This document shows positions 12,736-60,654 of a DNA stretch of 64,000 bases, one piece after another. Numbering within the stretch: the stretch's first letter is position 1; each line of letters starts with the position of its first letter. The stretch is from Nitzschia sp. DOCU1 (taxonomy: Eukaryota > Bacillariophyta > Bacillariophyceae > Bacillariales > Bacillariaceae): positions 4,464,001-4,528,000 of the forward strand of contig OX595985.1 of assembly GCA_951394045.1 (NCBI GenBank), given 5' to 3'. Below the pieces are notes generated by a model. It made no database searches, was not told where the DNA came from, and saw only the letters and a list, made by a program, of their open reading frames with translations. The position numbers and the translations under genes were made by a program.

Positions 12736-14052
12736 CTAAAACATAACCTTCGAACATAATCTCTTTCTCTCCGGTCCAGTTTGAATCTTGGTCAGCATAT
12801 CAGCCAGGTTCGATTGTGTAGACTCATACCCAATACGAATGATATCGGCCGCAGCCTTTGAACGAACGTAGTGATACGCAATGGAATTCGACTTCTTCTT
12901 CAGCATCGATTCGGGGACGCTTGTATTCTTCACGACGGACATGTTGTCAACTCTAACATTGGCATAGCCCTCAATAGGGATGCCCATCATTCTCAGCTTG
13001 TAGCGCAACGCTTCCAACAACTCAACTCCGGTTTTTAAAGCCATGAACTCGGAGCCAAACGAACTTGTTTCAACACTGTTCTGTTTCTTTGAGTACCAAA
13101 CAATTGGCGCTCTGTTCAAGAAAATCAACACACCTGTGCGCGACTGTCGAGTAACAAGGTTAGCAGCATGCGAAGCATCAACGAACATAGTAATTACCAC
13201 TGGTTTTCCTAATGGTTTTGGTGTGTCCGGCGGCCATTCATCTTTAGCCCACGGATAGAATTCCGACCAATCGCATTTGGGTAACTCTTCCCACTCCATG
13301 TAGGCGTCATCCATAACAAGTTTTGATCGATCATGAGACTTCAAATATGCAAAAATGTGTAGCACCGCATCCAGATGCCCTTTCCTCGGGCACGCATTAT
13401 ACGCTGACAGCATCGAAACCTCTCCGCAGATGTCAATTCTCCCCAACTCAACAATCCAACGCAAAATTCCAATACATTGCATGTAAAATGATACACCGTC
13501 GTCATTCAGTAGTGGCGACGAATCCAGCTCTGGTCTGTAGCCATTCGGTAGTACAGAGCTGACCTTATTCTTCAGGGTCCCATCGATCCGTAATTGGATC
13601 ACGCGGATTGCTTCTTTCACGTACTCCTCTGAACCAATGGCCCATTTAAAATTAGCATCACCGTCAATCCAATATTTGGAGATTGAGGCTCCTAGATAGG
13701 ATGTTGGCTCTCCCACTGACTCTGGTTTCAATAGGAACCGATCATTAAGATCGTTCAGGATTGACTTTGGATCGTGAGAGACACACAGCAAGTCGTCAGT
13801 ATACACAAGTAAATACTCATAATATTTTTCGCCGTTCGGGTGCAATGCCTCACGACGCCAAACATCCATATCAGCACGGCATGGAATAAATTGCAATTCC
13901 TCCCTCAAAACCTTTGCACAATGAGACCTCCATGAAAATCCTGCGGACGATAATCCATAGAGTGCCTTAATGATCACAGCTCTCCGACCCTGGAGAGAGC
14001 CAAACTCCGGACCTAGGATTGTGTGAACCTTTTCTGCGCAAGGCGCATGCAA
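12736..14052 (-). pseudogene. Copia1 pol, RT-RNase H remainder
   Basis: Resumes at HAPCAEKVHTILGPEFG in another frame, with the RT box YTDDLLCVSHD, palm/thumb sequence including YLGASIS, and RNase H with TMFVDASHAANLVTRQSRTG and SSFGSEFMALKTG. It ends normally before the 3' LTR. Catalytic residues in this half look intact; only the deletion near 14050 disables the enzyme. Confidence 0.85.
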
Positions 14053-16748
14053 GTAAGCTCCCGCGTCACAACCGACGCATATGTAATCGATGACGGCGCC
14101 TCGGTCTGATCGCCTCTTGCGCAGATCCGGGCCTTTCTTGTCAGATCCATTTTAACATCAAAAATAATCATCAGGTCGATCTGCTGCGACCCTACTGGTG
14201 GTTGTTCACTGTCTTCAAGGACTTTTAAGGCAGGCAGCACAGTTTTAACTTCCTTGGCCATTGCCTTCTCCCACAGGTCAGTACCGGTTTCAGCATCAAT
14301 AGCTCGTGCCCGGGCCACGTCCATGGGCCCCGGGACTTCGATTCCAAATTTCTCATTTTTGCGACGAATCGCGCGACGTTTGACTGCTTTCAAAATCCGA
14401 TCACGTTTTCGGAGAGTATAGGGAACCCACCAAACAAACACCGGTTCTTCAACAAGTTTATTTGCGACAGCATACTCCGCCAGTTGCACTGGATAGCCCT
14501 CTTTCGCATCCTTCAGCAAGAGCCATTCAGTTGATCCATCGACCATTTCGGCACAAACTTTCCATCCTTTCGTTGTTCTCTTGGGTATTCTCTGGCCATG
14601 ACGCTCAATCCAAGCATCATCTTTCGACAAGGCACTCCCATCACGCTTGTGGTCGACGAACTCTTTCAAATGCATGACGGTGTAGCCTTCATCATCAACT
14701 GTGGCATAAATTGCTTCCGCGATCTGGTTAGCATTGTACGCTTCAACATGACCATCATCAAATTCAACTTCGTAGATGCTCGTGTCAAGGATAGGATTGT
14801 CATGGTAGAAACCAATGAATTTCCCATCAGGGCCACGCTTCCGGCCCTTTACGATACCTGTGAAAAACGAATTACCGTCACCCGAGGCCATACGAACTTT
14901 TGATGACACATATTTGTCAAATGCAAGCTGGTCCTCTTCCTCATCAACTGGAGGCGGTTCCCATTGGTGGAATTTCCGCTCCCTTTCTTCTTCATCGTCG
15001 TCGTATCTCTCATATTCCGGAACGGTTGCCTCGACACGGATAAACCGATCATCATCTTCTTCCGGCTCGACAGAAATTCCTTTTATTCGGTTACCAAGCG
15101 ACACCTTTAACTTTTCAGTGAACTCCTTTTTCGTTTGCTTAATGTCCTCGGAGCGATGCTCCTCGGGCAACAGCGGAATGACTGAAGTACGATGCAAAAT
15201 TGTCCCCTTCGAGGTCAGCACGGCGAAGCAGAGCTCGTCTCCAACTTCAAAGCTTGGGCCAAGCCAGCGAGTGAGCTGCTTTTTCGGTTGGGTTGATTCT
15301 GCCGGCGACCGAGACCAACACCAATCGTAGAACGCAAAGTCCACGAGATGTGAAATATCTGCAGTATTACCTGTAATAATTGTAGTGGCGCATTCACCTT
15401 CTTGCTCGGGGTGATTTAAAACAGTGTGAGATCGTTGTTCGCAACAAGTCATAAAGCATCTGTCCCACAAAACAGCTGGTACGTTACGTGAGGTCATCGT
15501 CCTCTCATACAATCGGGTAACTTCCCGAATCGTGTCCTCCGCTCTTGCTTGGTTATGCATGTAAGGCTCCACCGGATAAATAGGAACCTGCGCCTTTTGA
15601 CAGCGCCTCAAGAATTCTCCTTGCGTTAAGGTAGTAGCCGAATCCGGAATAATCGCTTCAGGAAATCCGAATGCACGAAATAATTTATCCAGCGATGTAT
15701 GAGCATCTTTTTCTTGTCGCAACGGGAAAGCTCGGCACCATTGAAATGTCGTAGCATAAACTTGGAGGCAAGTAGTCCCCTCAAGCGATGTGCAGGGACC
15801 AAACTTCGTGTCGGTATACATAGCACATTTCAACCTTGGATACCGGAGCTGATAATGGGAGGGCCGAAATAAACGGTCCCCTGAGACCTTGCTCCAGTCT
15901 CTGACGGCACGTTGAGTCGTTTTGTTAAGCGTTCGTTGCGCAGCTTCAATTGAGATTCTCCAACGACGCGCCAGGGCATCTGCTTTAACCAACGTAGTTT
16001 TTGCAGTGGTCTTTACTCCCGATAAAGTAGCCGAAACTTTGTTCCCTAGAAATGCCGAAAGGGCCTGATTTTGTATCATTGACGCAACATTGAAAGCCGA
16101 CACAAGACGCTTCGCCACGACAGAGTCGAGATTGTGAAAATTGTTACCGCCGACCGTTTGTCGCAGGTGTTCCTCTGCATTGTTGCAATGAGGATCGGAC
16201 GGTTTCCATTCTAATTCACTCGTCATTCGAACATGAATATTGTTCACCGGATCGGTGGCCTCTTCTCTCGAGGGCTTTCTGCACGGAAAGAACGAAAAGG
16301 GTTTGTCATACTGCAGAGGGATCCGCAGGTCAGCAGTCCCCTCAATGATACAATGGTCCGTTGACTTTCGCTGAGCCGACGGAATCCTCAACAACGGGAC
16401 ATCATTAACAATCAGCTGGTTTTCTCGCAATTGATCCGGGCATAGCAGATGGCAACCCATACCCGGAACGACCAAAACATGGTCAAACAACAAAATAAAA
16501 GTTTGATAGGTGAGAGGGCAGTCGTACCCAACAGCGACCAAACACTCGCGAACTTTTGAAATTGGGCCCATCGAAGCATGAAACCCATTCACTTCAATAT
16601 CATATTGGTAGACATATAACACATAACATCCGCTCTCAGAGAAAGCGCAAGTATCCGCATGAGAATCGAGCTCACATCTCCACACCTGAACCACAGCTCC
16701 AGACGACGACGATGCAATCCGGTGCAAGGATGCAGCTCTTCTTCCTAG
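14013..16748 (-). pseudogene. Copia1 pol, protease-integrase-RT start
   Basis: Continuous with gag after the UGA. The aspartic protease motif CELDSHADTC lies about 25 codons downstream. The integrase core shows MYTDTKFGP, IPDSATTLT and an ARAEDTIREV region consistent with D,D,E. The RT N-terminal region (FDVKMDLTRKARICARGDQT) is present, but after VVTRE the sequence jumps directly to AYLHAP. About two dozen codons carrying the first catalytic Asp are missing and the frame shifts by one, ending this frame at 14013. Confidence 0.85.
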
Positions 16749-18242
16749 TCAGTTGCTCCCACCATTGTTTCGATTTCCATTATTATTTCGCCTGGTCATA
16801 TTGTCCCCCATGTTGTTGTTGTTATTATTATTGTTCGTCGCTGGGGTGGTCGATGCTTCATTCTGATTCGAGGTAAAAGTAGTTCCACCGGAAGATTGGG
16901 TAGAAGAAACATTTCTTTCACGATTACGGGCACGCTGTTCATTCACATAGTCTCGTTCCTCCCTGGTAAAAGTAGCCCAGATAGTTGGAGGGTACGACCC
17001 GTTGTTCAGCAGGTGTCCTGATTCAGAGAAGCGACCGCCGCCGCCACGACCACGACCTCCGCGACCGCGCCCGCCGCCACGGCCTCTCCCCTGATTCCTG
17101 CTCCCTCTTCCGCCTCTTCCTGAGGCATTGTATCCTCGGCCACCTCCACGGCCTGAATTATCATTTTGTGACATGGACGAAATATTACGAGGCAAGGGGT
17201 TACGCGAAGCCGACGATTCATTGGCAGCGAGTTGCCCGCCCAAGAAATCAACGGCAAGCTGATAGTCGTTCGAGCGACGATCATCCCCAGCAATTAATCC
17301 TTTTGCGACCTGGAGCTTCGGATCGGTGATAGCATCCAGGAGAGTACGAACTTTGGAGTTTTCACTCCTAGCCTCACCATGGTCAGCTAAATCGGTGAAG
17401 GCAGAAGTTAGACGAGCAACGAAGCCCTGCCAGGTAAAGTTGCGTGCTTTACCATTCCAGAACGTTGTGGCGATAACACGATCGGCTTCCAATTTCACTT
17501 GATTAACGTGGCTTGCCCCAGTATACTGGGACTTGATGGCATGGTAAGCGGCCCGACCATTCTTGGTCGAGGCATTGCCTTTCACGAAAGACCACGCCTC
17601 GGTCCCATGAGTAACATGGCGGACCATGAGCCATAGTTTCTCATTGTTGGCAGCATAAACAGCCCCGTTGTGAGACGCACGACGAATAAGCTCCTCGTGG
17701 AATGAGGGCTGGCCATATCCAAGCGGGTCATTTGCGGGATCCGGAACATCGACAACGGTACGAACGAGGTAAGCCAATGGAAGTCTCTCCAAGCCATAAG
17801 ACGAGTGGACCCACGCTTCCATGTTTTCGATAGTTTCACGCGCTTTCTTGGAAGTAGTGAACTTTTCGGGGAAGTCGGGATTCCCGGCAGCAATCACCTC
17901 ATCAATCTGCAGCTTGTACTGCCACAAGGTTCTCAAAACGTTACGAGTTGCAGCAGCAGCGTTCCAAGGGCGACCAACAGCATACAAATAACGAAGATAA
18001 TAGGCGAGTTGTTTCAAACGCAAAGCATGGTTCTGGCCAATGAGGACCCCGGGATTGGGGTTGCCACCAACCTGTCCCCCAGGACGACGAATGGTAGCAC
18101 ACAAACGATCAACATCATCATCGGTCAGTTGGCGAAACTCCTCAGGGTCATCAAAACCTTGGTCGGTGACAGCCGTGGACTGGGTCCCATCAAAACCAAG
18201 GGTGGCCTCAAGGTAATTACGAAAAGCGACAGCAGCAGCCAT
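16749..18242 (-). CDS. Copia1 gag
   Basis: 497-codon frame starting MAAAVAFRNYLEATLGFDG. The N-terminal half is helical capsid-like sequence (FHEELIRRASHNGAVYAANN, AYHAIKSQYTGAS). It lacks a CCHC zinc knuckle; instead residues about 355-400 form a long RGG/GRG-rich RNA-binding region. The C-terminus is asparagine-rich. The frame ends at UGA (16751-16749), immediately followed by CUAG, and the pol frame continues without a shift. This suggests that Gag is the main product and Gag-Pol arises by stop-codon readthrough. Confidence 0.85.
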   Translation of the reverse strand: MAAAVAFRNYLEATLGFDGTQSTAVTDQGFDDPEEFRQLTDDDVDRLCATIRRPGGQVGGNPNPGVLIGQNHALRLKQLAYYLRYLYAVGRPWNAAAATRNVLRTLWQYKLQIDEVIAAGNPDFPEKFTTSKKARETIENMEAWVHSSYGLERLPLAYLVRTVVDVPDPANDPLGYGQPSFHEELIRRASHNGAVYAANNEKLWLMVRHVTHGTEAWSFVKGNASTKNGRAAYHAIKSQYTGASHVNQVKLEADRVIATTFWNGKARNFTWQGFVARLTSAFTDLADHGEARSENSKVRTLLDAITDPKLQVAKGLIAGDDRRSNDYQLAVDFLGGQLAANESSASRNPLPRNISSMSQNDNSGRGGGRGYNASGRGGRGSRNQGRGRGGGRGRGGRGRGGGGRFSESGHLLNNGSYPPTIWATFTREERDYVNEQRARNRERNVSSTQSSGGTTFTSNQNEASTTPATNNNNNNNNMGDNMTRRNNNGNRNNGGSN

Positions 18243-18731
18243 GTTGATCAGAAACGAACGTGGTACGAGGGTACGGTAACGAAAGATCCTTTTGATATCT
18301 TTTTGGAGGATTTTTTTTTCAGCATTGGTGAAATCGGCACATCACCTTGCTCAGTCACACATTCTGTCGAGCAAGACCGCAGGTACCATGTGCTAACGAC
18401 AATCGCTGATCAGGCGATGCGCTCCACAAGGTTGCTTAAAAGGGTATACTTCGTGCATTGCACATTTTTCTCTCTTAAATACCCGTGCCGTTAACCCCCG
18501 AACGCAGGGTTTGTATTTAGGTGCGTCCACCTAGTTGGCGCGCGCATACCAGCCCGTATGCGAGCATGGCAGTATGATCGCCAGTTTTGCCGCGTCGGAT
18601 GCAAAACACGAAGCGACGACCATGGGCTTTCCTTTTTGCCTCTTTGCGCCGAATCTCCTCATCATCTTTATGGAGAAACAGATATTGTCGTAGCCTTCCC
18701 AGGCTGTACGGAGACTCTGGGTCTGATAAAC
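18243..18731 (-). other. Copia1 leader between 5' LTR and gag
   Basis: 489 bp without coding potential. Its LTR-proximal 120 bp recur at 51216-51329. The gag-proximal half has no visible features beyond a T-run near 18310. Confidence 0.7.
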
Positions 18732-19247: not shown

Positions 19248-20292
19248 ACGTCCGCCGCGGTACCCTGGAATGGTGTGAGGTACTGTTCTCTTGCATACAT
19301 TGCTCATGATAGGGTTGCCCCTTTGGTGTATCGTGATGAGGATCACCGTCGCATGTACGAGATTCAGATGGAAGGTATGGAGTTTGAAAGGGACAACAAC
19401 AACTTCTTTGATCTTTTGAAGGCTTGGTTGATGGATAGTCCTGGGTACACTTGGATTCGTTCTTATGAGGCATCCAGGAATGGAAGGAAGGCATGGTTGG
19501 CTTTTACTGATCACTATAATGGTGATGGTGAGAAGAACAACAGGACGGTGAAAAGCTGATGCTGATATTGCAAAGCTTCACTATTCCAATGAAAGGGCTT
19601 TGCCCTGGAACAAGTTCTCTGAACGTCTTAGCAATGCCTTCAAGGTAGTGGACAAGGATCCTGCTAGGCGTTATACTGCTGAAAGGAAGAGGGACATCTT
19701 GTTGGACAAGATCAAGATTGACCACAAGGAACTGGCAGCCGCGAAGCTTTTCATTTCTGAGCTGCCCAGGGACCCTGAGGACACGCTCTTTGAGTGTTGT
19801 ATCAACAAGTTTGGGACTTATGTCTCCAAGGCATTCCAGAACCTGAAGGCAGATGAGCAGCATGTGAAGAGGCATAAGATCTCTTCGGCTAGCTCTAACC
19901 GAGGTGGAAGAGGAGGTAGAGGAAGGGGTGGAAGAGGATACTCTAGTGGAAGAGGCAGCCGGTTTGGCCGTGGCCGTGGGAATGGTTCCAGGAACAGCAA
20001 CGTTACTTTTAATGGTGTTGACTGTTCTGATATCAACCGTGACTTCAATGCTGATGAATGGCAAAAGATGGGTCCGGTAGGACGCAAGTTCATTCATGAA
20101 CAGCGTGAGTGGAAGAAGAACAATGGAGGAGGACAGAACAATCAGAGGAATGTGAGCTCGGTCAATTACAGTGACCAGCAGACGTCTGTGTCAGAAGTAA
20201 CAGCGTCGACACCCTCCAATAATGAGGGACAACGTGGATCCCAAAATGGGCGTGGGTTTGGACGAGGTGCAGCAAGGAGTGAGGGCAATTGA
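19248..20292 (+). pseudogene. Copia2 gag, truncated and frameshifted
   Basis: Reads AAVPWNGVRYCSLAYIAHD, then FFDLLKAWLMDSPGYTW, then loses frame near 19551 (one base in a gaaaag run) and resumes ADADIAKLHYSNERALPWNK. As in Copia1 there is an RGG/GRG box (SNRGGRGGRGRGG). It ends at TGA 20290-20292, followed by CTC, with pol continuing in the same frame. The N-terminal third is absent. Confidence 0.8.
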
Positions 20293-21940
20293 CTCCTAGG
20301 AGGGATTTGGCTGCTGTTGACAGCATTTTACCGCTGGCTTTTGCGTAATTGGCAGCCACCTCCAACTCCAATCACATTGAAAATAAACGCATTCTGGATG
20401 AGAACTGTGAAATCAGCAGGGAGAAAAGGAAGAAAGGGACCTAGTCATGTGACGACTCCAGGTACATATGGAAGGAATGAAATGGATTCCCATGCCGACA
20501 CTTCGTGTGCAGGCAAGAACTGGAGGCTTTTGGAAGTCTCAAATGAAGTTTGTGAAGTATTGCCATTCTTGGAAAGTTACGGTCCAGTACAAGACATCCA
20601 GGTTGGTCGCTGTGGTACTGTCTGGACGGATGACTATGGGAATGATTACTTGCTAGTTGCTGACCAGATGCTCTGGTTTGGCGAGCTGATGGAGAACTCA
20701 CTCATCAACCCCAATCAGATTCGAGATTTTGGTATTGCAGTCAATGATAACCCCTACATTGATGTGGACTTTGGCCTGACAACTGATTCCGTCTTCATCC
20801 CATTCGATGTAACGGGGACAATCGTGCACTTTGATTCTCGGGTTCCCACCGAATGGGAAGAAAAGCATCTACCTGTCATTTTGTTGACGGCAGAAGTATG
20901 GGACCCGCCCAGAGTTCGTCCGGGGAACAGAGGATCGGCTGAAGGCTTGGCCATGGCTTCAATTCAGAGCCTGGCTAACGAAAGGAAGAAGCTTGGAATT
21001 TCATCTGTGAGTTCACAAACTGAGATTGCTGGGGAGACAGCCAATGTGCTTTCTGGTGTGTCATCAGCGTTTGACGAGAGAGAGTTCTGCCAGAGGCTTA
21101 TTGGTGCCGTCAAGATAGCAAGTTATGACAGGAAGCAGGAAGATGAAGAGGAAGAACAAAGGAGGATAGCTGGCGTGCTGTCAACCGACCGGCATTCAAG
21201 GATTACGGCAGAAGAACTATCAAGGAAGTGGAACATTGGTCTAAAGACAGCAGAAGCAACCATGAAATGTACAACCCAGCGTGGTGTACGTACTGCCACC
21301 AGACCATTGTCAAGAAGAGTACGTGTGGACCACCTGGACTTGCATCGCAAGAGGCTTCTGGGTGTATGGTATTGTGACACGTTACTGGCTAAGGTGAAGT
21401 CCCTTCTAGGGAATACTGTTGCAAATGTATTTACAAATGGGAAGTTCACAAAGGTTGTGCCATTGGAGGCAAGGCGTTTTGCCGGGGACTCTCTGGTGAG
21501 ATTCTTTGATGATGTGGGAGTTCCAGAGTTGATGGTGACAGATGGTGCTACTGAGTTCACCAGCAAACAGAAGGACTTTGGTAAGCATGCAAGGAGGATG
21601 AGAATGAAGCTCCATGTCACGGAGCAGGGGAGGTCAAATCAGAATCATGCAGCAGAGCGTGAGATTGGATATCTTTCTCGTCGCTGGAAGATGGAAATGG
21701 GCAGAAAGAAAGTTCCCAAGCGTCTACGGGACTTTGGTTTGGTCTATCAGTCTGAGATAATCAGCAGGATGGCCAGAGGTAAGAATGGGCGTTCCGGATA
21801 TGAAGAAGTTACTGGTGAAACACCCGAGATAGGAGAGTGGTTAGACTTTGAGTTCTATGAGCTCGTATGGTGGTGGGATCGTCCAGGAAAGCCAAATGCA
21901 ACTGATGACCCAAAGCGTCTTGGTCGCTGGCTGGGCATTT
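20293..21940 (+). pseudogene. Copia2 pol: protease and integrase
   Basis: In frame with gag after the UGA. Protease motif EMDSHADTSCAGKNW lies near 20480. The integrase shows VWYCDTLLAK, MVTDGATEF and HAAEREIGYL, matching the D, D, E core. The frame is lost near 21938, in a ttttagc run, at WLGI. Confidence 0.8.
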
Positions 21941-22655
21941 TAGCCACAATGTTGGCTCGGATATGTGCTACTGGATTGTGACTGAATCCGGGCACTTGAT
22001 CTCGAAGTCATCAGTGCAGCATGTGACAAGGGAAGATCGCCTCAATGATGAGGTAATGGGAAGGATCACAGCATTCAATGCTAGGCTGGAGGAAAGGATG
22101 AACGATGACAACTTCCAAATGCAGTGGGAAAATGATGGTTTACCTGATGACTTGTTTCTTGAAGATATTGATGAAAATGAAAACTATGGTGTGACGTGTG
22201 GGGAAGTTCCACCAGATGAAGATTATGGAGAAATGTTGTTGGAAGAAAGACCAGAAGATGATGAGGTGGAAGATCAACTTGATAAGTATATTGGCATGGA
22301 TTTGATATTTGGTGTTGGAAGTGGTGAAGAAAGAAGAGGTCGTGTCGTCAAGAGGTCCCGGGATAACTGGGGACGGCCTGTTGGGCGTGCTCACTCAAAT
22401 CCTATCATGGATACAAGTGAGTATTTGGTGGAAATGTCCGATGGGACAACAGAGAAGTATCGTGCAAATGTTATTGCCGAGAATATGTTCGCACAGGTGG
22501 ATGAAGAGGGTAGTCAGTTCCAACTGCTATCTGAGATTGTCGATCACAAAAAGGACGGGAGTGCCATCCCTATATCAGAGGGTAAGATCAGGTTGAAGGA
22601 TGGAGGTGAAAGGTTGAAGCCCACAACAAGAGGCTGGTCGTTACTAGTGGAATAG
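21941..22655 (+). pseudogene. Copia2 pol: integrase C-terminus and linker
   Basis: Continues SHNVGSDMCYWIVTESGH in the shifted frame, through a strongly acidic linker to TTRGWSLLVE. It stops at TAG 22653, where Copia1-like sequence would need a non-stop codon, and a second shift follows within 20 bp. Confidence 0.75.
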
Positions 22656-24571
22656 AAGGATGGGAGTGGGTCGCTTTGAAAGACCTGAAAGCTTCATACC
22701 CTGTCAAAATTGCCGAGTATGCAGTTGCAAATCGTCTTGTGGACGAACCAGCGTTCAAGTGGTGGGTACCATATACACTTAAGAAGAGAGGAAGGATCAT
22801 AGCAAAGGTAAAGAAGAAGTATTGGAGGCAGACTCACAAGTTTGGAGTCAGGATGCCAAAGTCAGTTGAGGAGGCTCTCCAATTCGACCAGGAGAATGGA
22901 AATCATCTATGGAAAGACGCTATAAACAAGGAGATGTCAAAGGTAAAGATATCGTATCAAGTGAAAGAAGGACTGTCACCACAGGAAGTAAGACAAGGGA
23001 GAGTTCCAGAGCTACTGGGACATACTGAAATTGGTTGTCATGTTGTGTTCGATGTTAAGATGGATTTCACTCGGAAGGCACGTTTCTGTGCAAATGGTAA
23101 TGAAACTGGAGCACCAACATCTATGACGTACTCTAGTGTTGTGTCAAGGGATTCTGTGCAACTTGCTTTCTTGATTGCAGGTTTGAATGACTTGGGTGTC
23201 ATGGTAGCTGACTTGGAGAATGCCTATCTCAATGCACCATGTGCAGAGAAGATTTGGTTTGTGGCTGGTCCTGAGTGTGGAGAGGATCAAGGAAAAGTTT
23301 GTGTGCTAGTAAGGGCACTCTATGGTTTGAAATCTGCAAGTTCCAGTTGGAGATCTACTCTTGCAGCAGCTTTGAGGGAGTTGGGATTTGTTTCTTCTAG
23401 AGCAGACCCCGATGTTAGGCTGAGACCTGCTGTGAAGGAAAATGGGGTGGATTACTATGAGTATGTTTTTGTTTATGTGGACGACTTGCTGGCTTTGTCA
23501 GTGAGACCAGAGTTGGTAATTGAGTCAGTCGGAAAGTTCTTCAGAGTGAAACCTGGAAGTGACCGAGAACCGGATAGGTATCTTGGCGGGGACATTGAAA
23601 AGTTGACTCTGGAGAATGGGCATACAATTTGGGCAACATCGTCCAGATCTTATGTTGAAAATGCCATCAAGACGGTGGAAGGATTGTTATTGGAAGATGG
23701 AGAAGGGTATACGTTAAAGACGCAAGTGAAGAATCCGTTACCACAAGGTTACCATCCAGAGCTGGATGTGACGCCTGAGTTGGATTCAGATATGGCATCA
23801 CGGTATGTGCAGTTGATTGGGATCTTGAGATGGGCTATTGACCTTGGCTGGATCGACATCTTTCATGAGGTTTCGATCTTGTCCCAGCATCAGGCAATGC
23901 CAAGAGAAGGGCATTTGGAGGCAGCATATCACATCTTTGCTTATCTCAAGAACAAGGATCATCGGAAGTATGGTTGCATAGGGTTTGATCCCAGTAACCC
24001 AAATGTTGATCTTTCTGAGTTTGAAACCAACTTTGATTGGAGCGAGTTTTACGGGGATGTGGAGGAAGAGATACCAAGAGATCTGCCAGAACCAAGAGGG
24101 AATGGAGTGAAGGTTTATTGTTTTGTTGATGCAAATCATGCAGGTAATGTTGTGACACGTCGGTCACATTCTGGGGTGTTGATATTTGTGCAGAATGCAC
24201 CAATCATATGGTATTCGAAGCGGCAGAACACAGTTGAGTCGTCAACGTTTGGATCCGAGTTTGTCGCATTGCGTATTGCCAAAGAGTTGATTGTTGGATT
24301 GCGTTACAAGTTGAGAATGTTTGGCGTTGCTGTGGAAGGTCCAGCATATGTTTTCTGTGATAACCGAGGTGTGGTAAAGAATGCAAGCATGCCGGAGTCT
24401 GCATTACAAAGGAAGCACAATGCTATCAACTATCATGCAGTTCGGGAAGCAGTGGCAGCTGGTATCATGCATGTTGGGAAGGAAGATGGCGAGACGAATC
24501 TGGCGGATCTACTAACGAAGTGTCTCATTGGGTCAAGGAGGTACAATTTGTGTTCGAATATTTTCAGGTAA
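22656..24571 (+). pseudogene. Copia2 pol: reverse transcriptase and RNase H
   Basis: Long open frame with FDVKMDFTRKARFCANGNE, MVADLENAYLNAPCAEK (the segment deleted from Copia1), YVDDLLALSVRP, YLGGDIEK and RNase H motifs CFVDANHAGNVVTRRS and SSTFGSEFVALR. It ends at TAA 24569-24571. Catalytic residues appear intact, although gag and integrase are broken. Confidence 0.85.
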
Positions 24572-25392
24572 TGCCTTGGCTTTGGCGGCATTGTTGTGTT
24601 GCCATGACCACCCAGGCGATGTGTATCATCGGGCTAATACCTGGGTTCGGCATCGTGTCTGCGGAGGATGTAGCGATTGTCAGGGAGAGAAGAGTTGAGT
24701 TCTTGAGTTGTAAGAGAGAAGAGATTTGAGGTGTGAACGAGGGCGAATGTGTGAATGGAAATTTGTTCCGTTGCACTATCGTCGGAAAAATGTTCTGTTG
24801 GCTCAGAGCAGAATTTTATTCCGTTACGTGTTATTGCGTGTTATCGGGATGCTCATGCTACTCACATGGAATGAATTCCATAGCAAGTGGGTGAAATCGC
24901 CCAGTGCTGTATGGGCTTATATCGATGTCTGGTTTTTCCCTAAATGACCCTTTGGTGGCATATGTCAGGGTCATTGATAATCTGTTGGGCATGTATGAGG
25001 TGGCATGCGTTGCATTTGCACCACGGGAGTTCTATCGCAGGGATTGGCACGGGAGAAGTAGTATAATCTTTCTCCGTTTGAGTTTGACTGTTGTTTGTTG
25101 CTCTACGACTAGTTGTGTGTTGATTTTGGTGAGTAGCTATGGGATTAATTCGAAAGGGACTGTTCGAATCCGGATGTGCCGTGTCAAATTAGTCAATATT
25201 CAATCGGCTTCACTCACGCGCGCAGTGCGCGACATGGTAGATGCAGCGGTCATCGGAACAAGGAAATCAGCGATACGTAAGCCAACAATGGCACAATCTA
25301 ATCTTGGTTCATCTCGGATACGGTTGTCTTTAGTTTTACGTCTGCTTATCATCATAAGGATACAAGTAAGTTACAGGAAGATTCACACACAT
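24572..25392 (+). other. Copia2 3' flank and Gypsy1 5' truncation zone
   Basis: No gene. It holds the probable 3' LTR of Copia2 (limits unknown) and the 46-bp repeat at 25108. From roughly 25200 onward the sequence becomes GC-richer and leads into Gypsy1 gag with no recognisable 5' LTR. Confidence 0.5.
25108..25153 (+). repeat. 46-bp repeat shared with 5577-5622
   Basis: Second copy of the 46-bp block, located about 540 bp after the end of Copia2 pol, where its 3' LTR would be expected. Confidence 0.55.
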
Positions 25393-29250: not shown

Positions 29251-29520
<270 letters not shown>

Positions 29521-29545
29521 CCGAGCTGTTCCATAGGGAAGCGGG

Positions 29546-40022: not shown

Positions 40023-40058
40023 GGTGGGCAACAAAGAAGGTTTTGAAAGAAACCCGTG

Positions 40059-40070
40059 CGTGAATTCACG
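40059..40070 (-). promoter_or_regulatory. Gypsy2 palindrome at primer-binding position
   Basis: CGTGAATTCACG, one base inside the 5' LTR. Confidence 0.7.
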
Positions 40071-40071
40071 G

Positions 40072-46606: not shown

Positions 46607-46645
46607 GGTGGATGTTGATTTAGTTGCGTTAGCGCAGAGGAAGCG

Positions 46646-46968
46646 TGTTAAAATAACCGGTTCGTAAACAGGTTATGGGCTTGCTTTTAGAACGTTTGGT
46701 TCTTAGTATTATTTTTATTATGAGCTCATTTGAGCATCTACTTTGTAATCTTGCGATCCTTTGATCGTGCATTTTCTGATCTTACGGAAGCTAGTCTGAG
46801 TCTTGACGGAAGTCTTTACGATCTTGTCGCTTCCGCAAGACTAGCTCTCTTCCGGATCCTAGTCGTCCTGCGAATAGTACTGAGTCGTGAGACCCAGTCG
46901 ATTCGAGTCACTAGTCGACTCGTCCGAATGGCCTTCAAACCATTCATTCAAATCGCCGTAATCGAACA
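46646..46968 (-). repeat. Copia3 5' LTR (323 bp)
   Basis: Partner LTR next to the gag leader. The leader just inside it (46626-46645) reads on the plus strand like the D-arm region of initiator tRNA-Met. Confidence 0.92.
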
Positions 46969-53326: not shown

Positions 53327-53528
53327 TGCAGTATACCGGAATATAGTGGGCTATGGAATAGCGCACTAATTCAACAATATGTAATTCCCCGCACTCTCAT
53401 GCAAGAGAGCTCCAGTAGCGCAGTGGTACTGCCTACAATCACCTTCTAAGCAAGGTCGAGGGTTCGAGACCGAACTCCTCAATCCCCTTTTTCGCGCGCA
53501 TACGCCGACTAGCGCACGGCATAGTGCA
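53327..53528 (+). repeat. Gypsy3 5' LTR-like end (202 bp)
   Basis: Bounded by TGCAGTATACC and CATAGTGCA and followed by a palindrome and gag. It contains box A-like TAGCGCAGTGG (53416) and box B-like GGTTCGAGACC (53461) at tRNA-like spacing, but the sequence does not fold as a tRNA. It does not match the 3' LTR. Confidence 0.55.
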
Positions 53529-53531
53529 TAC

Positions 53532-53543
53532 AGTGTTAACACT
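53532..53543 (+). promoter_or_regulatory. Gypsy3 palindrome at primer-binding position
   Basis: AGTGTTAACACT, three bases after the end of the 5' LTR (53528). Confidence 0.65.
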
Positions 53544-53567
53544 CCACGTTACACGCGTGAGCTAAAG

Positions 53568-54752
53568 ATGAAGATTGCAAACAGCATCCCGAAGAAGACC
53601 GCTGCCGAGAAGCAGGGCTTCAAATCAGCACCGGTCAGTGTCGAAAGACCCGAGCCAAAGGAGCTCAAAGATGGGGCGTACAGTCAATACGACTTGCGCA
53701 TTGATCCAAAAGATAAAAAGTCGTTGACGCGACGCGTCAAACAACCGCATTTCACGGACGGAACGCCCAAAGAGTGGTTCCTTTTCCTTATCGGACTTAA
53801 GGATGTGATCGCGGGTCAGGACTTGACTACGGGACCTCAGAAATTTGCGTTAACACGCAATTTGCTGAAAGGCCAGGTATTGGCTGCGTTCAACGCGAAG
53901 GCCTCGGAACTCGAAGCCGAAACTCCTGAGAGTTTTGAGAACAGTTTGCACGCGGTTACGGCGTATGTCCTCCCAAAACGCGCAGTGCAACTTCAAAAGC
54001 GCTATATGCGTCGGATCTGCCGAAAGCCCCCGACGATGACAATGAAGGCGTATGTGGCTCGGCTCCGCGAGCTAAACGATTACCTCGCGCTATTCGACGA
54101 GAAAGGCGAGAAAAACAAAATTCCCGACGACGAGCTCATGGAGAATTGCGAGTTTGGAATCCCCGCCAAGTGGCGCAAAGAGATGATCCTACAGGGATTC
54201 GAGCCCGTGGACCATACGGTTCAAGACTTTGTAGACTTCTGCGAACGGCTGGAAGCTACTGAGGAGATCAATGAAGCCCTCAGCAAGAAGGCAGACAACA
54301 ACGGCAAGTCGAATGACGAAAAACCCTCGAAGAGGAAGCGCGGAGGCCCGAGAGCGGGAACCGACGGTAAGGCCAAGTATGATTGTCTTTATCATGGCGC
54401 TAACAACACCCATGCTACCCATGATTGCCTTATTTTGAAGGATCAAGCAAAGAAGATGGCGGCTGCCCATTCGAACGTCGCAGGTCGTTTCAAAAAGGCC
54501 CGCTTCGAAAACAAAACTTGGCGCCGCAGCGACAGCGATGGCGATGGCGAAAAGAAAAAGAAAACAGGCGAGCTTCATGCCTACATCAAGTCGATGGTCG
54601 AGAACGCGGTCAAACAATCCGCAAAGAAACGCAAGGCCGAAGATCCTCCCTCGATGGATAATTTCAATTACGATATGGATGATCTCGACGGTATCGACTT
54701 CGACAAACTCAGCGTCAGCGACGGCAGCAACAGCGACACCGAAACGGATTGA
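53568..54752 (+). CDS. Gypsy3 gag
   Basis: 394 codons from ATG 53568. Contains FTDGTPKEWFLFLIGLKDVI, capsid helices, LQKRYMRRICRKPPTMTMKA and a finger CLYHGANNTHATHDC. The C-terminus is acidic (DLDGIDFDKLSVSDGS). It ends at TGA followed by CGA, and the protease frame continues in register, open for the 19 codons to the next ORF and beyond. Confidence 0.85.
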   Translation: MKIANSIPKKTAAEKQGFKSAPVSVERPEPKELKDGAYSQYDLRIDPKDKKSLTRRVKQPHFTDGTPKEWFLFLIGLKDVIAGQDLTTGPQKFALTRNLLKGQVLAAFNAKASELEAETPESFENSLHAVTAYVLPKRAVQLQKRYMRRICRKPPTMTMKAYVARLRELNDYLALFDEKGEKNKIPDDELMENCEFGIPAKWRKEMILQGFEPVDHTVQDFVDFCERLEATEEINEALSKKADNNGKSNDEKPSKRKRGGPRAGTDGKAKYDCLYHGANNTHATHDCLILKDQAKKMAAAHSNVAGRFKKARFENKTWRRSDSDGDGEKKKKTGELHAYIKSMVENAVKQSAKKRKAEDPPSMDNFNYDMDDLDGIDFDKLSVSDGSNSDTETD

Positions 54753-55528
54753 CGATGTGAGCCGGCGACTACGTGTGAATATGAATACAACAGTAATAAT
54801 AGTGGTGAATTGAACGATTACACTAGTTTTACCCAAAGGGACGATGTCCAACAGATGGAATCATTTTACAATAGCGATAGCGTTACAAGCGCAACACAAA
54901 ATTCGCAAAAATCACACGCAAGTCGAAATTTCGTTAAACTAACGAAATCTCGAAGTTTCAGCTCTCTCGACGCATGTCTGGCGGAAGCACAGCGCGAGCG
55001 CGAGCTTTACTTATTGAACACGATTCGAGGTAGTCGAACTGTAGGCTCAAACAAACGACAAAAATCCAGTCATCTAGTACCGATCACGTTTGCACGTGTT
55101 AACCAACGCGGCGGACGTCGGCAACAAGTAGTAACCGTCAAAGCGCTTCTTGACTCTGGCGGTAGTGGCTGTCTCTGGAAGAAGAGCAGTGCTAGCAAAC
55201 TAAAAATAAAGACCCAAAAAGCGACTACTGTATTCACAACTATGAGCGGTAGTTATAAGTGCACTGAACGCGTGACCACGCAACTCAGTCTACCGGAACT
55301 ACACGACGATCGATTGATCGAGTGGGACTTTCACCTAGCAGATGATCTAGGTAACTACGACATGATTATAGGCAGAGACCTCCTGCAAGAGCTAGGTCTA
55401 GTGATCGACTTCAAGACTATGGAAGTAGAATGGGACGATGCACGTATGCCAATGAAAGAAATAGATGCGACGACGGCGACGTCGTATCATGTACATGAAC
55501 GCGGACACGTCGACGAGATGTCGGACCG
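54753..55528 (+). pseudogene. Gypsy3 protease region
   Basis: In frame with gag after UGA: RCEPATTCEYEYNSNN..., then the aspartic protease VKALLDSGGSGCLW and MIIGRDLLQELGLV. After SDRVKK the coding sequence continues in another frame (ILDAKYEKADARSIAREQ), a one-base shift near 55526; Gypsy4 has gag-free continuity here, so this looks like a lesion. Confidence 0.8.
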
Positions 55529-58189
55529 CGTCAAGAAATTCTCGACGCCAAGTACGAGAAAGCCGATGCACGTAGCATTGCTAGAGAGCAAGCTCACCTT
55601 AGTAAGGATGAGCAGAGTAAGCTAGAACAGCTACTAGCAAAATACCAGACACTATTCGACGGTACCCTCGGCCGATGGCGTGGGGCCCCCTATGACATTG
55701 AACTAGTAGAAGGTGCCAAGCCGTACCATGCTAGAGCGTACCCTGTACCGAAAGCGTACGAGCGTACCCTGCGCGATGAAGTCGAACGACTCTGTCAAGT
55801 CGGAGTACTCAAAAAGGTGAACCGCTCCGAATGGGGTGCACCCACCTTTATCATCCCCAAAAAGGATGGAACAGTTCGATTCATCAACGACTTCAGAGAG
55901 TTGAACAAACGGATTAAACGCAAGCCGTATCCAATCCCGAAGATTCAGGACTTACTGATGAAGCTAGAAGGCTTTCAGTACGCGACGAGTCTCGACCTCA
56001 ACATGGGTTACTACCACATAGAGTTAAGCCCAGACAGTAAGAAGCTATGTACTATCGTACTCCCTTGGGGTAAGTACGAAATGCAACGCTTGCCGATGGG
56101 GCTCTCGAATAGTCCCGACATTTTCCAAGAGAAAATGGGCACCCTCTTTGAGGATCTAGAGTACGTACGAGTGTACATCGACGATCTACTAGAACTAACT
56201 ACAGGCGATTTTGATGACCACCTAGAGAAACTAGAAGTCATTTTCAAACGTCTAAAAGACACCGGTCTTAAGGTGAACGCCCGAAAGTCGTTCTTCGCCC
56301 GTGGCGAACTAGAATACCTTGGGTACTGGATAACGCGAGACGGAATCCAACCAGTCGCAAAGAAGGTAGAGGCTATTCACGCTATGAAAGCACCTACCAA
56401 TAAACGCGAGCTACGTAAGTTCATAGGCGTAGTTAACTACTACCGCGACATGTGGATTCGTCGCTCTGAAGTTTTAGCCCCTCTGAGTGCGCTAACTTCT
56501 AAAGAAGCCAAATGGCAATGGGGTCCGGTCGAGCAGAATGCCTTCGACACGATGAAACGAATTATAAGTAAGCAGACACTACTAACATACCCCGATTTCA
56601 ACATACCATTCGAAATACACACCGATGCTAGTCATACTCAGCTAGGTGCAGTGTTATCGCAACGCGGGAAACCGATTGCGTTCTATAGTCGAAAGCTGAA
56701 CCCAGCGCAAATGCGCTATACTACGACGGAACGAGAGCTTTTAGCTATCGTCGAAACACTTAAGGAATTTCGCAATATCCTTTTGGGACAGCGAATCAGA
56801 GTCTTCACAGACCATAAAAATCTTACGTATAAAGAATTTAACACGGAGCGCGTCATGCGTTGGCGCCTCTTAATCGAGGAGTTTGGCCCCGAACTCGTCT
56901 ATATCAAGGGCGAACACAACGTCGTTGCGGACGCGCTTAGTCGACTCGATCTCGACGATAGAGCTTTCCCCGAATCTCACTTAAATGAGTTTTTGGCGGG
57001 CAACGAATTACCGCGCGATGCATTCCCCCTAACTTACAAGAACATAGCGCGCATGCAGAATGCCGACCGCGCCTTATTATCTAAAGTACATACAAACCCG
57101 CGATATTCAGTCAAAGTCTATCGTGGGGGCGGAAAGAAGCGAGAACTAATAGTACGCGAGGACAAGATTGTTCTCCCAACGAGTCTCCAGAAGCGGTGCG
57201 TCAAGTGGTATCACGAGATGCTCTGTCACCCAGGAGAAACGCGTACCGAACAAACGATTCGACAACACTTCTACTGGAAGAACATCCGCGGCGATGTCGA
57301 GCGGATCTGCAAGTCCTGTCCGACCTGTCAGCTGACAAAGCGAAAGACAATCAAGTACGGGCATCTTCCACCCAAGGCGGCAGAAATAGACCCTTGGGAT
57401 ACGCTATGTGTCGACCTGATAGGTCCATATAAGATAAAACAACTAGGTAGTAAGAAGACACTGCAACTATGGTGTCTCACGATGATAGATCCCGCAACCG
57501 GATGGTTCGAGATGGTACGTATAGCAAATAAAGAAGCCTTTTCGATAGCCAGTGCGGCCGAAATGGCGTGGTTTACGAGATATCCGTGGCCACAAAAGAT
57601 TATTTATGACCGCGGAACTGAATTCATGGGAGAATTCCGAAGAATGGTGCGCGAAGACTACGGCGTAATGACCAAGCCAATCACAGCGCGAAACCCGCAG
57701 GCTAATTCAATTATCGAGCGAGTTCACCAAACCATAGGGAACATGATTCGCACTTTCGAGTTGCAAAACTCCGAAGACACGGAGTCACTGGACGGAGTCC
57801 TTGCAGCCACTATGTTCGCAGTACGCGCAACGTATCACACAACGATGCAAGCGACGCCAACACAGCTAGTGTTTGGCCGCGACGCTATCCTAAATACCCG
57901 GTTCGAAGCCAACTGGAAATTAATTAAGGAACGAAAGGAATCTCGTATTATCCAAAATAACACAGCTGAAAACAAGACACGAAGAGTTTACCGGTATCGC
58001 GTAGGACAGAAGGTAATGGTCCGTAATGAACAATCCCGTAAGTATGGGACGAATCCTTATAGCGGTCCGTATGAGATCGTGCACATTAATGACAATGGCT
58101 CTATTCGCATCAGAAAAGGAGCGGTGCAACAAACATACAATATCCGGAATCTGCATCCGTACGAGGAACGCGATGCTGCCGAACAGTGA
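55529..58189 (+). CDS. Gypsy3 pol: RT, RNase H, integrase
   Basis: Uninterrupted frame. RT: FINDFRELNKRIKRKPYPIP, LDLNMGYYHIELS, VYIDDLLELT, FIGVVNYYRDMW. RNase H: IHTDASHTQLGAVLSQRGK, FTDHKNLTYKE. Integrase: HPGETRTEQTIRQH and CKSCPTCQL, CVDLIGPYKI, YDRGTEFMGE, NSIIERVHQT, then TYHTTMQATPTQLVFGRD and the tail NIRNLHPYEERDAAEQ, TGA. No lesion is visible in this part, making it the best-preserved pol here. Confidence 0.85.
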   Translation, partial: RQEILDAKYEKADARSIAREQAHLSKDEQSKLEQLLAKYQTLFDGTLGRWRGAPYDIELVEGAKPYHARAYPVPKAYERTLRDEVERLCQVGVLKKVNRSEWGAPTFIIPKKDGTVRFINDFRELNKRIKRKPYPIPKIQDLLMKLEGFQYATSLDLNMGYYHIELSPDSKKLCTIVLPWGKYEMQRLPMGLSNSPDIFQEKMGTLFEDLEYVRVYIDDLLELTTGDFDDHLEKLEVIFKRLKDTGLKVNARKSFFARGELEYLGYWITRDGIQPVAKKVEAIHAMKAPTNKRELRKFIGVVNYYRDMWIRRSEVLAPLSALTSKEAKWQWGPVEQNAFDTMKRIISKQTLLTYPDFNIPFEIHTDASHTQLGAVLSQRGKPIAFYSRKLNPAQMRYTTTERELLAIVETLKEFRNILLGQRIRVFTDHKNLTYKEFNTERVMRWRLLIEEFGPELVYIKGEHNVVADALSRLDLDDRAFPESHLNEFLAGNELPRDAFPLTYKNIARMQNADRALLSKVHTNPRYSVKVYRGGGKKRELIVREDKIVLPTSLQKRCVKWYHEMLCHPGETRTEQTIRQHFYWKNIRGDVERICKSCPTCQLTKRKTIKYGHLPPKAAEIDPWDTLCVDLIGPYKIKQLGSKKTLQLWCLTMIDPATGWFEMVRIANKEAFSIASAAEMAWFTRYPWPQKIIYDRGTEFMGEFRRMVREDYGVMTKPITARNPQANSIIERVHQTIGNMIRTFELQNSEDTESLDGVLAATMFAVRATYHTTMQATPTQLVFGRDAILNTRFEANWKLIKERKESRIIQNNTAENKTRRVYRYRVGQKVMVRNEQSRKYGTNPYSGPYEIVHINDNGSIRIRKGAVQQTYNIRNLHPYEERDAAEQ

Positions 58190-58219
58190 GCTCTTAGAAG
58201 CCCTTGTCATGGGGGCGCA

Positions 58220-58676
58220 TGCAGTACACTAGAATACCCCTCTAGATCTAACAAGTAGTTAGAACGTTAGAATGTTGTAACATTGGAATGTTAGAATGTT
58301 CGAACGATGAGTACACACAATGGCCTACGTGTAGTACCAACATACCTCAGATACATACCTGGCTGACGTCGACTTGGTCGAACGTCTGTGGACGCATGGA
58401 CGGACGGGCAAGGCCGGCGCGGCTGACGAGCAATGACGACGACAACGGCGAGCGCGGCGAGCCGTCGACGTCTACTACTGGAATAGAACTTCCAACGGTA
58501 TCTAGCTATGGACCTTGAAGAGATTCGAGGAGCTAGATCGGTGGGAGTTGTATCCAACGCATGTAGGATGCGTTGAGGAAAGACCCTGGTGGTCTAGGAG
58601 CGATAGAATCAGCGATAACTTAGATCTCACAATTATTTCCACTACAACTTTTTCATCGTACTTTCAGCGTAGTGCA
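58220..58676 (+). repeat. Gypsy3 3' LTR (457 bp)
   Basis: Preceded by the purine-rich atgggggcgca. Starts TGCAGTACACTAG, ends AGCGTAGTGCA, and has TCTCACAATT at 58625, as in the Gypsy1 and Gypsy4 LTRs. Confidence 0.8.
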
Positions 58677-59014
58677 GGCTCAATCATGCGTCTAAGGTCG
58701 CTGCGGTCCGTAAGCCCCAGCACCCCAGTACGCTCAAGAAGGCGCCCCACAAAGGGCGCACAACTCACAACAAGACTTGGCGTCGCGGAGAATCCAATGG
58801 CGCGAACCGCGGAGAACGCACCTACACTTCCAAGGAGGTCCTGGCCATGGTTAAGGCCGCGCGTGCCAGCGTGGAAAAGAAGGCCAAGGAAGACTCCGAC
58901 GAGGAGATGGAACTTAACAACATTGAAGAAGACGAGGATGGAATCTTCGAAGAATTAAGCCCCGAAGATGAGGCTCAGCTTGAGGCCTTCATCAACGAGA
59001 ACACCAACGAATGA
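58677..59014 (+). pseudogene. Gypsy4 gag, 3' part
   Basis: After one copy of GGCT is removed, the frame runs CKVWL into NHASKVAAVRKPQHPS with no indel and contains THNKTWRRGESNG (NKTWRR also in Gypsy3 gag). The C-terminus is strongly acidic. It ends at TGA 59012-59014 and the protease frame continues in register. Confidence 0.85.
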
Positions 59015-60654
59015 TCACACTACATATGTAATAGCGACTTAATTAATAGGAAACGAATAGCCGCACAATGCCCCGCCGAATGTCACATTCTCTCTAGCCT
59101 ACATAGGCCCAAGAAGCGACAGAAAACGCAGCGTTCGCCAGAGGTGCTAATCCTGGTCCCGTCTACGGTACCAGGAGGCGCGCCAATGGTGTTACGTGGG
59201 CTTGTTGACAGTGGTTGCACAGGAACCATCATCCTAAATGACTTCACAGCTCGGCGCAAAACCTGGAAGGATCGCACCGGACAGTGGACGACAAAGGGTG
59301 GTACATTCTGCACCACAAAGAAGGCAAAGATACCACTGATATTCGCAGACTTCACAAGACAGAAGCAAATAGAATGGGAGTGCCACGTGGACACCCAGTC
59401 TAAGTCCAAACGAGAGAACTACGACATTATACTCGGTAAGGACATACAACAATACATGGGCTTAGATATACTAAATAGTAGCCTCACCCTCAAATGGGAT
59501 GGAATAGAAGTACCCATGCGAGAGTTCGGAGCGCTACGCGACCGTAGCAGAGCTATGGAAGTATACAATCTCTCACAAGAGGCGGAATCTACCGCCGAAT
59601 TAGCCAAGCGCACCACCGAGATTTTAGATGCGCACTATGAAAAAGCTAACCTAGAACAACTGTGCAAGGAGCAGTCGCACTTGTCAGAGGCAGAACAAGG
59701 CGACTTGCTACGACTACTTCGCAAATATGAAACACTATTTGACGGTACACTCGGCGAGTGGAAGGGAACCGACATTGAGTTAGAACTAAAAGATGATGCA
59801 AAACCATATCATGCACGTCCTTTCCCCATACCGCAAGTACACGAAGGCGCTATGCGACGCGAAGTGGAACGACTCTGCGTGTTAGGCGTCTTGGAAGAAG
59901 ATAATGATAGTGAATGGGGGGCACCCTCATTTATTATCCCCAAAAAGAATGGAACCGTACGATTCATAAGCGACTTCAGAAAGTTAAACACGATGCTCAA
60001 GCGTAAGCCGTATCCTATCCCTAAGATTCAGGACATGCTACTGAAGCTGCAAGGCTTCCAATATGCGAGTTCCTTAGATCTGAACATGGGGTACTATACC
60101 ATACGTTTAAGCCCTGCGGCGTCAAAGCTATGTACTATTGTGCTGCCCTTCGGCAAGTACAAGTATAAACGCTTACCCATGGGAGTGGCTGGTTCGCCAG
60201 ATATCTTTCAAGCAAAAATGTCCTCCCTGATGGCAGGACTCGAATTCGTACGAACCTATCTCGATGACGTACTCATAGTCAGTTCAAGTACCTTTAACGA
60301 TCACCTCACCAAGCTAGAGAAAGCCCTAGCGCGTATAGCCAAAGCCGGGCTCAAGATCAATGCGCAGAAATCCTTCTTCGGACGAGGCGAGATCGAGTAT
60401 CTTGGATACTGGGTAACTAGGGAAGGTGTCCAACCTCTCCCCAAAAAGGTTGACAGCATCTTGGCAATGAAGGCGCCGAAGAACAGAAAGGAACTTCGAG
60501 GCTTTATTGGTCTCGTCAACTATTACCGCGACATGTGGAGACGTCGTTCACACGTGCGCGCACCATTAACGTCTATGACATCCAAAAACGTCCCTTGGCG
60601 ATGGGGCGAAGAACAGCAAAAGGCCTTCGATGAGGCGAAACGTATAATCAAAAA
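59015..60654 (+). pseudogene. Gypsy4 pol: protease, RT, start of RNase H
   Basis: Same frame as gag, open from the codon after TGA. Protease: RGLVDSGCTGTIIL and IILGKDIQQYMGL. RT: FISDFRKLNTMLKRKPYPIP, LDLNMGYYTI, YLDDVLIVSS, FIGLVNYYRDMW. The sequence leaves the family consensus after DEAKRIIKK at about 60654, where the foreign segment begins. Confidence 0.85.

Follow-up and report, generated by a model that had tools for sequence, protein, structure and literature searches.

Retroelements must make both Gag and Pol, and a stretch of 64,000 nucleotides (nt) of the diatom Nitzschia sp. DOCU1 (assembly GCA_951394045.1, contig OX595985.1, positions 4,464,001 to 4,528,000 of the forward strand; hereafter the window) raises the question of how this is done when a stop codon stands between the two. 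Six retroelements in the window, named Copia1, Copia2, Copia3, Gypsy3, Gypsy4 and a Ngaro-like element, each place a single UGA between an upstream Gag or Gag-like frame and a Pol frame. Comparison of their sequences makes it very probable that most ribosomes stop at a leaky UGA, yielding Gag, and that programmed readthrough of this UGA yields Gag-Pol in smaller amount. The UGA is conserved among copies, the Pol frame beyond it is open, and the codons that follow are constrained as coding sequence in most families; constraint at the RNA level is seen in three families and covariation in two. Ribosomal readthrough itself, together with its frequency and the amino acid inserted, is what we infer from these patterns.

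All six TGA triplets lie where an earlier note on this DNA had placed them, on the minus strand at 16749–16751 (Copia1), 45053–45055 (Copia3) and 32790–32792 (the Ngaro-like element), and on the plus strand at 20290–20292 (Copia2), 54750–54752 (Gypsy3) and 59012–59014 (Gypsy4). Each is in frame with an open frame upstream and an open frame downstream. The open in-frame codons before and after the UGA number 530 and 911 in Copia1, 246 and 562 in Copia2, 539 and 617 in Copia3, 455 and 290 in Gypsy3, 113 and 553 in Gypsy4, and 582 and 317 in the Ngaro-like element. The note's further statement that the downstream frame is open in the frame of gag thus holds over 290–911 codons, with the Gag frame of Gypsy4 broken in the window, where the open reading frame (ORF) at 58506–58958 sits in another frame; a different Gypsy4 copy is open through all 233 codons available before the UGA. 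Copies in the same genome were gathered by similarity to the 601 bases around each UGA, and the triplet at the site was then read. Excluding the window's own copies (L004, L033 and L039), TGA is present in 106 of 107 other copies: 28/28 for Copia1, 3/3 for Copia2, 19/19 for Copia3, 20/20 for Gypsy3, 19/20 for Gypsy4, and 13/13 relatives of the Ngaro-like element at 62–71% identity to it plus 4/4 further relatives. Including the own copies, the Copia loci with TGA are 29/29, 4/4 and 20/20, respectively. The 20 Gypsy3 copies were taken from 39 other matches listed (40 of 69 candidates scored) and the 20 Gypsy4 copies from 31 other matches listed, fragments among them. L032, L037, L038, L059, L060 and L127, which do not reach the site, and the listed Ngaro-like relative C2:2490546 stand outside these counts, and L061–L068 are counted with a different family, F1432. 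Programmed readthrough of Gag-Pol would call for one in-frame stop at the gag–pol junction that diverged copies retain; the copies read here show this, and the conservation of the UGA is more than chance.

One alternative is that each UGA is a mere inactivating mutation in a decaying copy and that the six were noticed together by chance. Damage is present here: the window copies of the elements have additional breaks downstream, and two further Gypsy copies carry a TAG at 25645 and a TGA at 36479. However, the triplet is kept in 106 of 107 copies, which are 62–100% identical, and the nearest other stops on either side of it are not the same from copy to copy. The earlier note had named sense codons or indels at the site as what would tell against readthrough; no sense codon was seen in otherwise open copies, and the only non-TGA copy among the 107 is a Gypsy4 copy with a deletion over the site. 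Chance decay is therefore a very improbable account of the six stops.

A census of reverse transcriptase (RT) sequences, in which 150 of 425 candidates were scored, separates Copia families with frames near 1400–1500 codons from others with 1871–2118 codons in one frame. Junction pieces of further Copia families, named by Pol frame length, were read in two sets (20, and 20 more). In six further families, whose upstream frames were read to the edge of the piece (45–158 codons), an in-frame UGA is found at 34 of 34 aligned sites, namely 10 in F1404/F1405, 5 in F1396, 10 in F1432 (eight of them L061–L068), 3 in F1489, 4 in F1507 and 2 in F1315. L158, L159, L160 and L163, intended for F1489/F1507, gave no alignment across the site and hence were not counted. 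F1484 (L146, L165 and L167) was rejected as a member of this group, its TGA being a decay stop that is private to one copy and replaced by GGG in two others (L166 did not align); such a private TGA favors chance decay in that family, and it also indicates that the conservation test is able to fail. Other junctions are built differently. In F1381/F1371, TAG follows Gag in 4/4 aligned copies (L142, L143, L144 and L145), being in frame with Pol in L142–L144, and the alignment past the TAG has gaps indivisible by three and a kept ATG. These gaps and the kept ATG suggest a separate Pol start, and UAG readthrough is possible. Gag and Pol are in different frames in F1548 and F1462 (L140 and L141), which would reflect either a frameshift or damage. 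No conserved UAA was found among the junctions read, and scans of viral contigs for relatives gave none.

The codons past the UGA behave as protein-coding sequence in most families. The ratio of nonsynonymous to synonymous differences (pN/pS) over codons 1–40 is 0.34 in Copia1, 0.41 in Gypsy3, 0.35 in Gypsy4, 0.50 in the Ngaro-like element and 0.16 in Copia2 (3 haplotypes only). It is below 0.5 over both codons 1–20 and codons 1–40 in Copia1, Gypsy3 and Gypsy4, indicating that the downstream frame is coding in these three families. All distinct rows of five families, and 13/15 rows of Gypsy4, have frame 0 open for 130 nt (90 nt in the Ngaro-like element). Frame +1 is open in no row of four families, in 5/13 rows of Copia1 and in 1/12 of the Ngaro-like element; frame +2 is open in no row of five families and in 10/12 rows of the Ngaro-like element. 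A comparison of two Ngaro subfamilies over 70 codons gives a pN/pS of 0.33 in frame 0 against 1.15 and 3.37 in the other frames, and F1404b compared with F1405a gives 0.29 in frame 0 and 3.97 and 0.82 in the others.

These codons also bear on the possibility that Pol arises independently of Gag, whether ribosomes terminate and then reinitiate close by or Pol has an internal promoter or an mRNA of its own. The junction of Tca2 of Candida albicans showed promoter activity (PMC2194720), and the TAG families F1381/F1371 retain their downstream ATG. In Copia3, F1404a, F1396, F1432, F1489, F1507 and F1315, an in-frame ATG lies 5–17 codons past the UGA, before or within a transmembrane-like segment described below; this is a point in favor of reinitiation and against readthrough. 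The first in-frame ATG is at codon 60 in Copia1, 36 in Copia2, 13 in Copia3, 35 in Gypsy3, 58 in Gypsy4, 63 in the Ngaro-like element and 72 in F1404b and F1405, and these distant ATGs speak against reinitiation, save in the seven families with an ATG within 17 codons. In Copia1, Gypsy3, Gypsy4, the Ngaro-like element, F1404b and F1405, no in-frame ATG occurs before codon 35–72, and in Copia1, Gypsy3, Gypsy4 and F1404b/F1405 the codons ahead of the first ATG are constrained in frame. The Copia1 Pol reads DSHADT from codon 28, which we take to be a protease-like motif, and its first ATG comes only past that motif. Moreover, reinitiation requires neither a common frame nor a 3' stem. Synthesis of Pol without Gag is therefore an improbable explanation, yet a less remote one than chance decay.

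In some families, RNA structure 3' of the UGA gives further support to readthrough. In the Ngaro-like element, a covarying two-part stem-loop is predicted at 32734–32785 on the minus strand, beginning 3–4 nt past the UGA. It has 18 pairs, 92.6% of 216 cells are paired, and its pairing and its covariation score were each reached in 0 of 500 shuffles. When the fold is predicted freely, the outer stem moves and two more pairs, both varying, appear; the fold z-score is −3.2 to −4.7. A search pattern made of both stem arms hits 18 places and its reversed control one, and all but the window's own lie within the listed Ngaro relatives. The two lowest windows of synonymous difference (pS) in this family, 0.241 and 0.246, are directly after the UGA. 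The stem of F1404/F1405 has 23 pairs past an 18-nt spacer, with 97.4% paired and a covariation score reached in 0 of 500 shuffles; 8 of the 23 pairs have changes in both partners, a number that drops to 1 or fewer if the stem is slid.

In Copia3, a long compound stem is predicted at 44936–45045 on the minus strand, with an alifold energy of −42.7 kcal/mol over 12 distinct rows; it closes about 110 nt past a 7-nt spacer, and its changes are one-sided only. Its fold z-scores are −0.6, −2.2, −3.4 and −1.8 at 60, 90, 120 and 150 nt. The pS is 0.035–0.059 in windows from codons 1–31 and at least 0.071 everywhere else, and this collapse suggests a constraint on the RNA itself. F1432 has the 5' arm in common with Copia3, and two of its copies fold at 120 nt with z-scores of −3.2 and −2.4 but give no signal at 60 nt. 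F1489/F1507 have a predicted hairpin, set 7 nt past the UGA, whose inner stem is exchanged (4 distinct rows). Gypsy3 pS drops after the UGA from 0.32–0.48 to 0.11–0.22; no synonymous dip is seen in Gypsy4, and the dip of Copia1 stays above its minimum. Since folding was scored at several lengths on 18 sequences, lone z-scores near −2 carry little weight; the Copia2 range is +0.8 to −2.6. The earlier note had proposed a search for 3' stem-loops. Covariation brings them out in the Ngaro-like element and F1404/F1405, and folding together with constraint in Copia3; the signal is weak in Copia1 and Copia2, and none was found in Gypsy3 and Gypsy4. The stem would probably help readthrough in the first three cases, and in Gypsy3, Gypsy4 and Copia1 the short context alone may perhaps suffice.

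That short context is not uniform. Copia1 has CTA after the UGA in the window and CTA (24) or CTG (5) over its loci, and Copia2 has CTC. The note's claim of known leaky contexts is only partly right, the next codon being variable or different elsewhere: in Copia3, CGG in the window and TGG at 12/20 loci (CGG at 8); in Gypsy3, CGA in the window and CGA, CGG and CAA in 15, 4 and 1 copies; in Gypsy4, TCA in the window and in 19 copies; and in the Ngaro-like relatives, GAG in 9 and GAA in 4 (own copies included for Copia1 and Copia3). The context is therefore not fixed, and of the two things that were to be compared among copies, the UGA is kept and the next codon varies.

The variable next codons are one of several results that weigh against readthrough or against part of its evidence. 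The 4 pairs of the Ngaro-like stem that are changed on both sides were matched by 106 of 500 shuffles, the 8 double-changed pairs of F1404/F1405 were reached by 18 of 500 (5 distinct rows from two clades), and the covariation score of F1489/F1507 by 32 of 500. The folds of Gypsy3 and Gypsy4 are not more stable than those of shuffled sequences (z −0.2 to +1.3), and that of Copia1 is hardly more so (z +0.6 to −2.0). The pN/pS of Copia3 is 1.25 over codons 1–40 and 3.7 over codons 1–10, and that of the Ngaro-like element is 0.86 over codons 1–20, in both cases with a low pS. Coding at the start of these two frames is therefore argued from the open frame and from constraint farther downstream, the pN/pS of Copia3 being 0.28 over codons 41–100. 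In Gypsy3 the ratio is 0.70 over codons 41–50, and frame 0 does not stand out when F1489 is compared with F1507 or F1432 with Copia3.

It is also conceivable that UGA is a sense codon in the host, used once per element. Diatoms have selenoproteins. However, other retroelements in the genome have open frames of 1484–2118 codons, and each UGA family has its UGA at the Gag–Pol border; the window has no Rfam match at gathering cut-offs, which is weak evidence against a selenocysteine element. A reassigned UGA is thus hardly credible, and programmed readthrough appears to be the best explanation of the shared arrangement that the earlier note had described as host-favored. The host-favored part is unproven, because families with one long frame and families with TAG after Gag are also found in the genome.

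Copia3 has the order of Ty1/copia (CoDi-like) elements, integrase before RT, a weak gag_pre-integrs match being followed by RVT_2; integrase was undetected in Copia1 and Copia2. On the minus strand, Copia1 consists of an upstream ORF at 16752–18341 (530 codons; no Pfam match; assigned to Gag by position and a Gly/Arg-rich end), the first part of Pol at 14016–16748 and an RT part at 12739–14151, which is in a different frame in the window copy (RVT_2 E 2.9e-5, under the Pfam cut-off). Copia2, on the plus strand, has Gag at 19552–20289, the first part of Pol at 20293–21978 (27% identity to Copia1 Pol over 516 amino acids) and RT at 22610–24568 (RVT_2 E 7.9e-16). Copia3, on the minus strand, has Gag at 45056–46672 (539 codons), the first part of Pol at 43202–45052 (gag_pre-integrs E 4e-4, under the Pfam cut-off) and RT at 40661–42973 (RVT_2 E 4.7e-40). 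Homologues carry PF13976 and PF07727, and some come from named diatoms; proteins similar to those of the Copia and Ngaro-like elements bear the names Fragilaria crotonensis, Cylindrotheca closterium, Chaetoceros tenuissimus and Mayamaea pseudoterrestris. A diatom host is also indicated by an rbcL on contig 63 of this 52-Mb genome, which is a close match to Rubisco large subunits of diatoms in the PDB; 18S gave no answer. Many retroelement matches lie on contig 1 at about 2.9–5.8 Mb, and five Copia1 sites, the window's included, are identical over 601 bases.

Gypsy3 and Gypsy4, both on the plus strand, show the Ty3/gypsy order, RT (with RNase H) before integrase, in one ORF in Gypsy3 and with RT and integrase over two ORFs in Gypsy4. 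Gypsy3 has Gag at 53385–54749 (23% identity to the Gag region, 25648–27042, of another Gypsy), the start of Pol with a protease at 54753–55622 (Asp_protease_2 E 4.4e-5) and RT, RNase H and integrase at 55499–58186 (RVT_1 E 6e-25 plus others). Gypsy4 has the end of Gag at 58673–59011, Pol with a protease region, assigned by similarity, and then RT at 59015–60673 (27% identity over 171 amino acids to the Gypsy3 Pol start; RVT_1 E 3e-25) and an integrase part at 60937–62406 (Integrase_H2C2 E 7.5e-17; rve under the cut-off). Two other Gypsy copies serve as a contrast. The one at 24895–29270 (plus strand) has a TAG at 25645–25647 and a frame change, and its family has an inferred single frame of 1484–1488 codons; the one at 36485–40118 (minus strand) is broken by a frame change and, in the integrase region, by a TGA at 36479–36481, and its family has an inferred single frame of 1538–1567 codons, both families being assigned by equal or near-equal integrase scores without alignment. 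Since these presumed relatives have single long frames, one-frame families seem to coexist with UGA families in this genome.

The Ngaro-like element, on the minus strand, has a Gag-like ORF at 32793–34538 without a Pfam match and the first part of an RT ORF at 31839–32789; the ORF of a relative matches Mayamaea protein P0183. A search of solved structures with its ORFs gave nothing useful. The earlier note had called it DIRS1, and in all counts here that element is the Ngaro-like one. DIRS elements proper have inverted terminal repeats. The relative L168 (161–6236) has no inverted repeats of at least 25 nt, and it has split direct repeats in the order A1-ORFs-B1-A2-B2 (161–404 with 5841–6084, and 5712–5846 with 6102–6236), so that DIRS proper was rejected and the window element is called Ngaro-like. 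Such repeats were not found for the window copy within 28800–36500. An L168 ORF resembles the tyrosine recombinase family PF00589 weakly, with an E of 4.6e-4 and 20.4 bits, under the cut-off of 27.1.

RT identity is 64% between Gypsy3 and Gypsy4 and 47–56% between each of them and the other two Gypsies; it is 50% between Copia1 and Copia2 and 22–24% between Copia3 and either. The elements that the earlier note had treated as six cases from Copia, Gypsy and tyrosine recombinase elements thus amount to about four lineages, and it is likely that the UGA arrangement arose repeatedly across element types.

What readthrough would add to Gag differs among families. In Copia3, codons 17–35 past the UGA (44948–45004, minus strand) encode a transmembrane-like segment with a 19-residue hydropathy of 2.55, and Copia3 and six further Copia families (L128, L129, L130, L132, L134, L136 and L147) have such a stretch within about 60 residues past the UGA, with values of 1.6–2.6. 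The stretch is missing in Copia1, Gypsy3, Gypsy4, the Ngaro-like element and F1484 (at most 1.32), and the maximum in Copia2 is 0.98. Among 120 of 262 Copia3 Pol homologues listed, 71 have at least 120 residues ahead of a protease-like motif (loosely defined). A transmembrane-like stretch is present in the first 150 residues of 60 of these 71, against 0/71 in each of the next four 150-residue blocks and at most 3/67 in any later block. The first residues of the homologues are those set by gene callers, and an upstream UGA is invisible in protein data. A loosely defined basic motif resembling PKSKRW is found in 46/71, past the hydropathy peak in 44, and in 0/71 at residues 150–300; it would thus often follow the helix, ahead of the enzymes. 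It is tentatively suggested, though rather doubtful, that the UGA in this large diatom Copia group acts as a membrane switch besides controlling the ratio: only read-through Gag would gain the helix, so that Gag-Pol but not Gag would be anchored in the membrane as particles assemble. The bases that encode the helix in Copia3 and F1404/F1405 also form the putative stimulatory RNA stem. A membrane-like segment past the stop, if real, is not something one would expect in the Pol of a retrotransposon.

Readthrough thus appears to occur in Copia, Gypsy and Ngaro-like elements of one algal genome. Its RNA signals are open to reporter tests, which makes diatoms suited to studying the repeated evolution of Gag-Pol ratios. 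Gammaretroviruses are known to read through a stop codon, and the same has been proposed for a few yeast retrotransposons. No report of programmed readthrough in diatom elements was found in the open-licence literature, judged by listings rather than full texts. The diatom Ty1/copia and Ty3/gypsy elements CoDi and GyDi belong to the same types, and excerpts of PMC2806351 briefly mention that diatom elements can have stops between gag and pol, without treating them as programmed. Moloney murine leukaemia virus and its kin likewise have an in-frame gag stop, a short spacer and a 3' RNA structure, but the virus uses UAG and a pseudoknot (PMC2194720), whereas the diatom elements have UGA and predicted plain stems. 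Tca2 of C. albicans has gag-UGA-pol and a potential 3' pseudoknot, and its junction gave no readthrough in S. cerevisiae (PMC2194720), which counts against readthrough here; Tca2 is known from an assay, whereas the diatom elements are known from conservation, constraint and covariation. The Ngaro elements of Cafeteria have A1-ORFs-B1-A2-B2 repeats and Gag-like, RT/RNase H and tyrosine recombinase ORFs (PMC8547959); the word readthrough is absent from the main text of that paper, whereas the diatom element has ORF1-UGA-ORF2 in one frame and a covarying stem. A further parallel is Tj1 of Schizosaccharomyces japonicus, with Tosmo/Tcry, Ty3/gypsy elements in which a TGA between Gag and Pol and its flanks are conserved; excerpts of PMC4600332 and PMC10085805 state that Tj1 Pol has no AUG, that removal of the stop leaves virtually no integration, and that readthrough has been proposed. 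Those elements belong to a single clade in which the 8 bases forming a core around the TGA are fixed, whereas the diatom set comprises about four lineages of three element types, with variable next codons and, in some, covarying 3' stems.

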